Below are positions 9,246 through 17,644 of a stretch of 59,799 bases of DNA, piece by piece. Origin of the DNA: a virus; IMG/VR virus record IMGVR_UViG_3300021964_000069, positions 1 to 59,799 of that record, one strand, 5' to 3'. The notes beneath the pieces are model-generated. The model saw only the letters and a program-made list of their open reading frames with translations. It was not told the DNA's origin and did no database searches. Position 1 is the stretch's first letter; every line of letters starts with the position of its first letter. Position numbers and translations under genes: made by a program.

Positions 9246-9318
9246 TTGCGTGGGCAGGATTCGAACCTGCGACCTCAGGGTTATGAGCCCTGCGAGCTGG
9301 CCACTGCTCTACCACGCT
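9246..9318 (-). tRNA. Initiator tRNA-fMet (anticodon CAT)
   Basis: This 73-base tRNA folds canonically. The acceptor is AGCGTGG/CCACGCA with an unpaired A1-A72 end and discriminator A. The D stem is GAGC/GCTC, the anticodon stem CAGGG/CCCTG with loop CTCATAA, and the T stem GCAGG/CCTGC with loop TTCGAAT. The mismatched first pair, the three consecutive G-C pairs at the base of the anticodon stem and the A11-U24 pair are initiator hallmarks, and the body resembles bacterial tRNA-fMet. The anticodon is at 9283-9285. CCA is not encoded, so the host nucleotidyl transferase must add it. Confidence 0.93.
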
Positions 9319-9573: not shown

Positions 9574-9649
9574 TGGACGTGGGAGGAGTCGAACCTCCGT
9601 TTGCTGATAGTGTACTTTCGAACTTTGTCAGCACTTACCCGGCACGCCC
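9574..9649 (-). ncRNA. tRNA-like RNA with no anticodon arm
   Basis: The 5' GGGCGTG pairs with 3' CACGTCC (7 bp including G3-U70, the alanine identity pair), discriminator A. A perfect T arm (GGAGG/CCTCC around TTCGACT) is present. Where a D arm and anticodon arm should be, there is no D stem; instead a single helix TGCTGA/TCAGCA encloses a segment that can form GTTC-GAAA-GTAC, capped by a GNRA tetraloop. No 5-bp stem with a 7-base loop can be found, so no anticodon can be assigned. The layout recalls the tRNA-like domain of tmRNA with everything beyond the first helix removed. It begins one base after the upstream stop codon. Confidence 0.6.
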
Positions 9650-9650
9650 A

Positions 9651-9842
9651 TTATTTGCGTCGCCAAGATCGGTGCACTGCTGCACTTGTTGCTTGGTCAA
9701 CGACTTGTATTTCTAACACTTGTTTGCTACCGATTATAGGAACATAGCTATATAATTGTGTATCAGAACATTGCACACATTTATTATAACCTAAATCTAA
9801 TCTTGCTTGTGGCATTGTGTTGCCGCATCTACAGTATTTCAT
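9651..9842 (-). CDS. Small zinc-ribbon protein (DksA/TraR-like C4)
   Basis: This 63-residue protein starts MKYCRCGNTMPQARLDLG and continues NKCVQCSDTQLY, giving a CxC...CxxC zinc ribbon like that of DksA/TraR and many phage homologues. Such proteins may bind the RNA polymerase secondary channel or act as small zinc proteins in host takeover. An ATG three codons upstream is an alternative start. The start overlaps the preceding gene; the stop is followed after one base by the tRNA-like RNA, implying co-transcription and processing. Confidence 0.7.
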   Translation of the reverse strand: MKYCRCGNTMPQARLDLGYNKCVQCSDTQLYSYVPIIGSKQVLEIQVVDQATSAAVHRSWRRK

Positions 9843-10044
9843 ATTGAGCATTTATTTTTATATATTGATTATTTTCATTCCAAGCGTCTGCTGACATATA
9901 ACCTACGCGTTGATAAACATAATTATCAAGGTGTTGCATCATTTGTTTACGCTCACTTGTTAATTCAGGCTTTTTGCATTTTTTAATAAAGTGAATAACT
10001 CTTGCGCCGTTATCATTTTCGCCATAAAATACCCAGTTTTTCAT
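9829..10044 (-). CDS. Hypothetical protein, 71 aa
   Basis: This small basic protein (MKNWVFYGENDNGARVIHFIKKCKK...) has a beta-rich start and a helical middle (SERKQMMQHLDNYVYQRVGYMSADAW). It overlaps both neighbours by a few bases. No family is recognised; it is one of the early microgenes. Confidence 0.55.
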   Translation of the reverse strand: MKNWVFYGENDNGARVIHFIKKCKKPELTSERKQMMQHLDNYVYQRVGYMSADAWNENNQYIKINAQYEIL

Positions 10045-16063: not shown

Positions 16064-17644
16064 ATGGCACAATTTGGTGGGCCTAAACTTGTCAAAAAAA
16101 TGTATTTTGATGGTGAGGCTAAGGAGAAACTAATTAATGGAATAAATAAAATAGCTAATGCCGTAGGCTCCACATTAGGAGCTAGCGGTAAAACTGTTAT
16201 TATAGAAGACGACTTCGGTGGTCCTCAAGTTACTAAAGATGGTGTAACCGTCGCTAACAGTATTTTATTACAGAGTCCGGTAGAAAACCTAGCGGTATCT
16301 ATGATGAAACAAGCTGCCCAAAAAACAGCTACTGTGGCCGGAGATGGTACAACAACATCTATAGTTTTAACAAAAGCTATTATTGAAAACTATTATTTTA
16401 AAAAGGGCGAAAAGCATTCTTTTAGGGATATTAAAGCCGGTATGGAAGCTTATAAAGACCATATCATTAATATACTTAATAAGAAAGCAATTCCTGTTAA
16501 AAATAAGCAATTAACTCAAGTTGCAACTATTTCTGCTAATAATGATGTAGAGCTAGGGGAAACCATAGCTAAAGCATTTACTGAAGCCGGTAATAATGGC
16601 GTGGTGGCAATGGAAACATCGCCAAGCAATGAAACTTATGTTACCTCTGTACAAGGAACTAAAATAGGTAGTACGGCTAAAAGTCCGCATTTTTATACTA
16701 ATGCCGAAAAAGAAATAACTGAACTTGAGAATCCTCTTGTATTTATTAGCGCATCGGATATACCAAATATGCGTAAAATCCAAGATATTCTGGAGTATGC
16801 GATAAAGTCCAATCGCTCTATACTCCTAGTTGCCCCATTAGAATCGCAGCCGCTAGCTGCACTGTCTATGAATAAAGTAAAGGGCAACATTAAAGTCAAC
16901 GTTGTAGATCCACCTAGTTTTGGACTTAAGAGAAAAGATATACTAGATGATCTTGCGTTGCTTGTCGGGGCTAAAGTTTTTGACGAAAGCCTGGGTGATT
17001 CAATTGATGCAATCACCCCTGACATGCTAGGAACAGCCGATAAGGCTATCTCAGATAAAGATGGTACTGTACTTATTGTTGAAAACAAGCCTGAAGAAGT
17101 GCAGGAAAGAATTAAGTATTTAAAATCTGTTCTTGAAAAAGAAGACCATCACGTTATGACTCGGCATTTAAATGACAGACTTGCATTATTATCAGGAGGT
17201 GTTTCTGTAATATATGTTGGTGCTGACACTGAAGTTGAGTTAAAAGAAAAACAAGACAGAGTAGATGATGCTATACACGCTGTACGTGCGGCTAAGAAAG
17301 AAGGCATTCTTCCTGGCGGCGGCAGTGCTTTAGCTTATGCTGCAGCAGCGGATTGGGAATTTAAAGGTACCGCCGGTTTTTTAACTGGCGTAGAAATACT
17401 CAGTAGAGCACTTGCAGCACCATTTACCAAAATACTTACAAATGCAGGCTTAGATCCTTCTGCTTATACACTAAACAAGTGGGGAGAAGGTATTGATGTT
17501 ACTTGCGGACAGAAAGAAGATATGATTAAAAAAGGTATTGTTGATCCATTAATGGTCACAAAAACCGCTTTAAATAATTCTGTATCTGTTGCTTCTACTA
17601 TATTATCGACCGATTGTGTAATCAGTAATATACGTGAAGAATGA
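16064..17644 (+). CDS. groL: GroEL-type chaperonin
   Basis: This is a complete 526-residue group I chaperonin. Diagnostic blocks are present: GSTLGASGKTVIIED, VTKDGVTVA (Asp60, equivalent to E. coli Asp52), VAGDGTTTSI (Asp94, equivalent to Asp87) and GILPGGGSALA. ATP hydrolysis should therefore be possible. The apical domain is intact, but the usual Gly-Gly-Met tail is missing and the protein ends in NIREE. It lies directly ahead of a GroES gene with a 4-base overlap, reproducing the cellular groES-groEL pair in reverse order. It probably folds phage structural proteins. Confidence 0.96.
   Translation: MAQFGGPKLVKKMYFDGEAKEKLINGINKIANAVGSTLGASGKTVIIEDDFGGPQVTKDGVTVANSILLQSPVENLAVSMMKQAAQKTATVAGDGTTTSIVLTKAIIENYYFKKGEKHSFRDIKAGMEAYKDHIINILNKKAIPVKNKQLTQVATISANNDVELGETIAKAFTEAGNNGVVAMETSPSNETYVTSVQGTKIGSTAKSPHFYTNAEKEITELENPLVFISASDIPNMRKIQDILEYAIKSNRSILLVAPLESQPLAALSMNKVKGNIKVNVVDPPSFGLKRKDILDDLALLVGAKVFDESLGDSIDAITPDMLGTADKAISDKDGTVLIVENKPEEVQERIKYLKSVLEKEDHHVMTRHLNDRLALLSGGVSVIYVGADTEVELKEKQDRVDDAIHAVRAAKKEGILPGGGSALAYAAAADWEFKGTAGFLTGVEILSRALAAPFTKILTNAGLDPSAYTLNKWGEGIDVTCGQKEDMIKKGIVDPLMVTKTALNNSVSVASTILSTDCVISNIREE

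Follow-up and report, generated by a model that had tools for sequence, protein, structure and literature searches.

The RNA encoded on the minus strand at positions 9574–9649 of the window (the whole stretch of DNA analysed, a 59.8-kb viral record) appears to be the tRNA-like domain (TLD) of tmRNA standing alone, with a short hairpin in place of the body. On balance, we favour the interpretation that it is a message-less phage tmRNA that acts as a competitor, blocking or blunting trans-translation in the host. The same layout recurs in many viral sequences. It seems to us an even call whether these constitute a large, previously unrecognised family of TLD-only viral RNAs with swappable hairpins, carried by unrelated tailed phages as a common device against ribosome rescue.

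The 76-nt RNA runs from its 5′ end at position 9649 to the discriminator A73 at 9574. It opens with the acceptor strand GGGCGTG (9643–9649), which includes G3 and pairs over seven positions with CACGTCC (9575–9581), which includes U70; this pairing is supported by covariation. The D-loop equivalent, CCGGGTAAG (9634–9642), keeps the conserved GG but has no D stem. A central, P2-like helix, formed by TGCTGA (9628–9633) and TCAGCA (9602–9607) and supported by both folding and covariation, encloses the apical element CAAAGTTCGAAAGTACACTA (9608–9627), a weak inner hairpin around GAAA that replaces the tmRNA body. There follow the linker AAC (9599–9601), its C at the position of tmRNA C48, and the T arm GGAGG-TTCGACT-CCTCC (9582–9598), with a perfect stem and a TTCRANY loop. 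The encoded 3′ tail is CAA, not CCA. The initial annotation, which left the strand unstated, had described a 7-bp acceptor with G3-U70, a perfect T arm and a discriminator A, all of which are present on the minus strand. It had also noted that a 6-bp helix with a GAAA-capped inner hairpin occupies the place of the D stem and anticodon arm, as is indeed seen here.

Folding energy sets the RNA only slightly apart from shuffled sequences (z −2.16; 4 of 200 shuffles equal it), and hence structure prediction alone would not settle the case. The plus strand folds about equally (−24.4 versus −24.8 kcal/mol for the minus strand), but a plus-strand reading was rejected because both the T-loop consensus and every homologue place the RNA on the minus strand. 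Scans for promoters and terminators yielded no excess over shuffles. The case for this RNA, being made from sequence alone, rests on homologues rather than on folding energy.

To collect homologues, IMG/VR was scanned with a pattern comprising the acceptor and T arm separated by 40–70 free bases. This returned at least 120 stretches, and those among the matches listed were mostly not tRNAs and showed the same layout around a variable hairpin. A second pattern placed no constraint on four of the T-stem pairs or on acceptor positions 4 and 5. It matched at least 120 viral stretches and, across 257 billion bases of genome sequence from bacteria and archaea, a further 65; a control scan of reversed sequences gave 0 hits. 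Once tRNAs and one full-length tmRNA had been removed, the distinct set held at least 208 sequences, at least 189 of them from at least 212 viral loci; 20 genome loci and a single cultured phage supplied the others. The genome hit L265 was discarded because it is the 3′ portion of a complete tmRNA. A third scan, exhaustive for a single exact geometry (78 nt), identified 57 contigs, of which about ten overlap the viral stretches of the second pattern; from this small overlap we infer that the second pattern by itself would probably match several hundred contigs in all.

A model built from 19 trimmed sequences, with the window sequence excluded (R1), detects the window RNA with a score of 57.8 bits (E 4.5e-11), and it also recovers members with a different D-loop that little resemble its seeds. 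When R1 was applied to six bacterial genomes, tRNA-Ala-sized matches scored at most 33.6 bits and full tmRNAs 38–43. In a BLAST search of the locus against named phages, the matches listed cover the neighbouring tRNA-Met and leave the RNA unmatched, and 26 concatenated diverse members returned no match by BLAST at 1e-6.

The positions left free by the searches are consistently paired. Among the matches listed for the second pattern, 88 of the 89 distinct viral hits form both of the acceptor pairs 4-69 and 5-68 (shuffled control: mean 25.7, maximum 37 of 89), and 86 form the free T-stem pairs (shuffled mean 6.8, maximum 16). By comparison, the acceptor is paired in only 19 of 58 hits from the genome collection, which indicates that real members are concentrated in viral contigs. 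In an alignment of 96 members, 97.6% of cells across the whole structure are paired, versus 39.8–52.6% with the partners slid, although this figure is favoured by the alignment having been fitted to the model. The central helix, which lay outside every search pattern, is paired in 90.6% of cells, with changes on both sides in all five pairs. Homologues failing to conserve the acceptor and T-arm pairs would have refuted the initial annotation; instead, the acceptor, the T arm and the central helix all covary.

The alanine identity element could be assessed in the same manner. When positions 3 and 70 were left free, G3·U70 was observed in 40 of 40 distinct hits, all of which also form 4-69 and 5-68. 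A G-C pair would serve the structure equally well, so a wobble retained without exception points to recognition by AlaRS. The earlier proposal that G3-U70 marks the RNA for alanine is thus strongly supported.

Comparison with tmRNAs and with homologues bears out the further suggestion of a TLD whose body has given way to a minimal hairpin. The body of a tmRNA is roughly 300 nt. Standard tmRNA (RF00023) shares with the viral RNAs the 7-bp acceptor with G3-U70, A73, a stem-less D-arm with GG and a canonical T arm. The elements also follow the same order (non-U8, GG, TTCGAC, P2, a linker ending in C48, T arm), as illustrated by a bacterial full-length example, GGGGATG-ATCGG-TTTCGAC-P2 ... P2-GGAC-T arm-CATCTCC-A. 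What the viral RNAs lack is the mRNA-like domain with its resume codon, tag and pseudoknots: standard tmRNA is about 360 nt, whereas the 209 sequences examined measure 67–122 nt, and none contains an Ala-Ala-stop tag. Among the matches listed for the distinct set, GG is present in the D-loop of 207 of 208, C48 in 181 and A73 in all. tRNAs carry U8; position 8 is A in 189 of these 208 members and C in the window RNA. Many relatives, termed class B, have the tmRNA hallmark TTCGA(C) after the GG. The window RNA belongs to class A, in which TTCGAC is absent and GG is followed by GTAAG, as here (GGGTAAG), or the motif reads GGTTAG.

Scores against the tmRNA family are graded. At 5 of 20 loci scanned with Rfam, members pass the RF00023 gathering threshold (L154 68.9, L155 65, L181 56.3, L019 52.5 and L141 47.3 bits); these carry a TTCGAC-type D-loop, though they are body-less. 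The remaining members grade down to about 25 bits. The window RNA itself scores 28.4 bits, below the gathering value of 47, and 13.9 bits against the permuted tmRNA model RF04321. Because RF00023 also gives 28–40 bits to 76-nt tRNA-Ala-like matches, scores in this range are not diagnostic, and the window score is uninformative alone. Homology to the tmRNA TLD, as judged from these alignments, is well supported, but it is carried by the family and not by the window match alone.

A TLD-only tmRNA in a phage is already known from the Mycobacterium phage DS6A. Hudson et al. 2014 class DS6A as 'TLD only' and, with reference to Mao et al. 2009, report that a DS6A-like molecule, chargeable or not, strongly inhibits tmRNA, perhaps via SmpB titration (PMC4131195). 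According to the 2025 tmRNA database article, endogenous tmRNA in E. coli is inhibited by the DS6A form (PMC11915505). The likeness drawn here rests on that published description, without direct sequence comparison. DS6A is a single reported example, whereas the present set comprises at least 189 distinct viral sequences whose central hairpins are of several kinds, and the database holds only 9 'standard, no CDS' entries among 97,179 sequences (PMC11915505). The literature searched, a scope that excluded most subscription papers and preprints, contained no report of such a family. What this analysis adds is the size and diversity of the family, its occurrence across unrelated phages, many of them in culture, and a measure of how strictly G3·U70 is kept. 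CDS-less tmRNAs of plastids (about 65 bp, Mallomonadaceae) and mitochondria also lack the tag frame (PMC11915505), but these are organellar, and 'permuted, no CDS' forms differ in gene order. The permuted two-piece tmRNA (RF04321) found in some marine phages, such as Melnitz, is another phage-borne relative. In its gene the T arm and 3′ acceptor lie ahead of the 5′ acceptor, whereas the window RNA begins with its 5′ acceptor strand and carries both strands on a single short molecule. The tmRNA of Stenotrophomonas phage Marzo was considered and rejected as a TLD-only form, given its annotated length of 375 nt.

We examined the genomic context of the RNA. In the window, its 5′ end lies 1 nt from the stop codon of an ORF for a 66-aa zinc-ribbon protein (9651–9851, minus strand), whose homologue in Flavobacterium phage immuto is annotated as a DnaK suppressor (DksA-like). 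Pfam and PHROGs gave no match for this protein, yet members of its cluster are found upstream of the RNA in at least 48 loci. A canonical tRNA-Met(CAT), called by ARAGORN and Rfam, lies 255 nt downstream in the same orientation (9246–9318, minus strand). Other members adjoin genes for head proteins or head proteases, an exonuclease or a ParB-like/methyltransferase protein, or sit in tRNA clusters; a tRNA occurs within 1 kb in 48 of 236 instances among the matches listed. In one viral contig (L185, 1467–1882), a GOLLD RNA (168 bits) is located about 540 nt downstream of the TLD-only RNA.

The window terminase is 62% identical to that of the environmental podovirus MW202828 and 44% identical to those of Flavobacterium elemo phages, with Cellulophaga phages also among its hits, from which we infer that a Bacteroidota host is likely. 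The window additionally encodes, by reading of the sequence, a GroEL-like chaperonin of 526 aa (16064–17644), and a related elemo phage is annotated with GroES. No model match was found with R1 in the closest named phages by terminase (an elemo phage and MW202828) or in immuto, suggesting that the RNA is not essential to this group.

The apical element ACAAAGTTCGAAAGTACACTAT also occurs as a separate hairpin right after the DksA-like gene in contigs that carry TLDs (L024, L059, L077, L319, L320 and L323, by 19-mer matches; the protein ends in VHRSWRRK). Its presence both inside and outside TLDs suggests a mobile hairpin module. At five further loci (L298, L304, L313, L306 and L317), the apical hairpin is closed by an acceptor-like GGCGTG/CACGCC stem and the T arm is absent; these are possibly a still smaller derivative.

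Cultured phages carry the RNA as well. BLAST with one Microbacterium copy returned 29 records, representing about two dozen distinct Microbacterium phages cultured on Microbacterium foliorum or testaceum. The copies lie near the right end and, among the matches listed, are unannotated except in phage BAjuniper (L331), where the TLD-only RNA at 401–488 is misannotated in the public record as tRNA-Pro(agg). All ten copies that were read have G3-U70; their T stem and central helix vary with pairing kept, and in phage Vitas acceptor pair 6-67 changes from U-A to A-U. TLD-only RNAs were also seen on archaeal-binned contigs (L249/L356, from a Nitrosotalea MAG, and L264, from an archaeon MAG), which we infer are likely misbinned phage contigs. 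An Acholeplasmataceae MAG (G019; L286, L346, L359) contains two full-length tmRNAs, with a TLD-only RNA on a third contig.

How such an RNA might act can be outlined by analogy. Expression is itself an inference; the RNA would be excised from a phage transcript, with RNase P generating the 5′ end and CCA being added, and host AlaRS would charge it with alanine via G3-U70. In tmRNA, pair 3 is always G-U and is a determinant for AlaRS, and the deformed, stem-less D-arm contacts SmpB extensively (PMC3985003). Together with SmpB, the TLD mimics tRNA-Ala in the A site, and its affinity for EF-Tu is about that of tRNA (PMC8012679). The viral RNA may thus be bound by EF-Tu and, through its own stem-less D-arm, by host SmpB. 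None of 39 viral records carrying the RNA contains an SmpB gene, implying that the host protein would be used. With no resume codon and no tag frame, the RNA would compete with host tmRNA for AlaRS, EF-Tu, SmpB and stalled ribosomes, and trans-translation and tagging would be blocked or blunted during infection. This function is inferred from the DS6A precedent, which is also what makes a decoy the most likely of the roles proposed in the initial annotation. Since the alanine pair is so strictly kept, charging seems to matter, and the RNA may thus enter ribosomes instead of merely sequestering SmpB.

Ribosome entry could also serve a different end. The RNA and SmpB might form a tag-less ribosome handling factor that accepts the nascent chain and clears or holds stalled ribosomes, leaving phage proteins undegraded. 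Tag-less mitochondrial tmRNAs are retained together with SmpB, presumably to help deal with incomplete mRNAs (PMC11915505), and the viral RNAs keep all aminoacyl-acceptor features, beyond the needs of pure SmpB titration. We nevertheless regard this as unlikely, since without a resume codon or stop there is no known route to termination and recycling, and since the effect reported for a TLD-only RNA is inhibition of tmRNA. Doubtful, too, is that the molecule is an alanyl-RNA or tRNA mimic aimed at another target, whether as a decoy for defences that cut or sense tRNAs or as a non-ribosomal alanine donor. It offers no anticodon to cleave, retains alanine identity and sometimes adjoins tRNA genes (the minority of instances given above), but from such a role one would expect neither a D-loop, P2 and C48 arrangement of tmRNA type nor scores that shade gradually into those of RF00023.

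Other viruses use tRNA-like structures as primers, packaging signals or processing guides, and the occurrence of the apical element outside TLDs could be accommodated by such a use. The varied genomic contexts and the strict G3-U70 would remain unexplained, however, and our analysis gave no support to a processing guide or primer, the other roles raised initially, so we consider this explanation very improbable. An attachment-site remnant of a prophage, or a decaying tRNA or tmRNA gene, scarcely merits consideration: tmRNA genes are common integration sites, but a fragment would keep one end, whereas both halves are kept and covary in the distinct viral sequences, and the reversed-sequence control was empty. 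An ordinary tRNA whose anticodon arm is unusual or split can be set aside with similar assurance. The only indications of one are the tRNA-Pro label in BAjuniper and a relaxed ARAGORN call of tRNA-Val(gac), in which the acceptor is broken and a 12-nt intron is assumed. U8 and the D stem are absent, and both the length and the sequence of the central region differ freely from one homologue to the next, with no conserved anticodon loop among them. tRNA-Ala does share G3-U70, A73 and the T arm, but the U8, D stem and anticodon arm of a tRNA are all missing from the window RNA. A standard tRNA fold would have contradicted the initial annotation, and no covariance model or default ARAGORN run calls one: ARAGORN (default, mitochondrial, intron and relaxed) found no credible tRNA or tmRNA at the window RNA, and no Rfam family reaches its cut-off there, the neighbouring tRNA-Met being the only gathering-level match.

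Trans-translation is nearly universal in bacteria, and the spread of the TLD-only RNA suggests that phages widely interfere with the rescue of stalled ribosomes in their hosts. If phages do commonly carry a message-less tmRNA, then blocking or steering rescue would amount to a general strategy of infection, with RNA and not protein as the agent. Current annotation misses or misnames these RNAs. Their presence in cultured Microbacterium phages makes the question testable now, and comparison across members can reveal which TLD positions are needed by SmpB and AlaRS.
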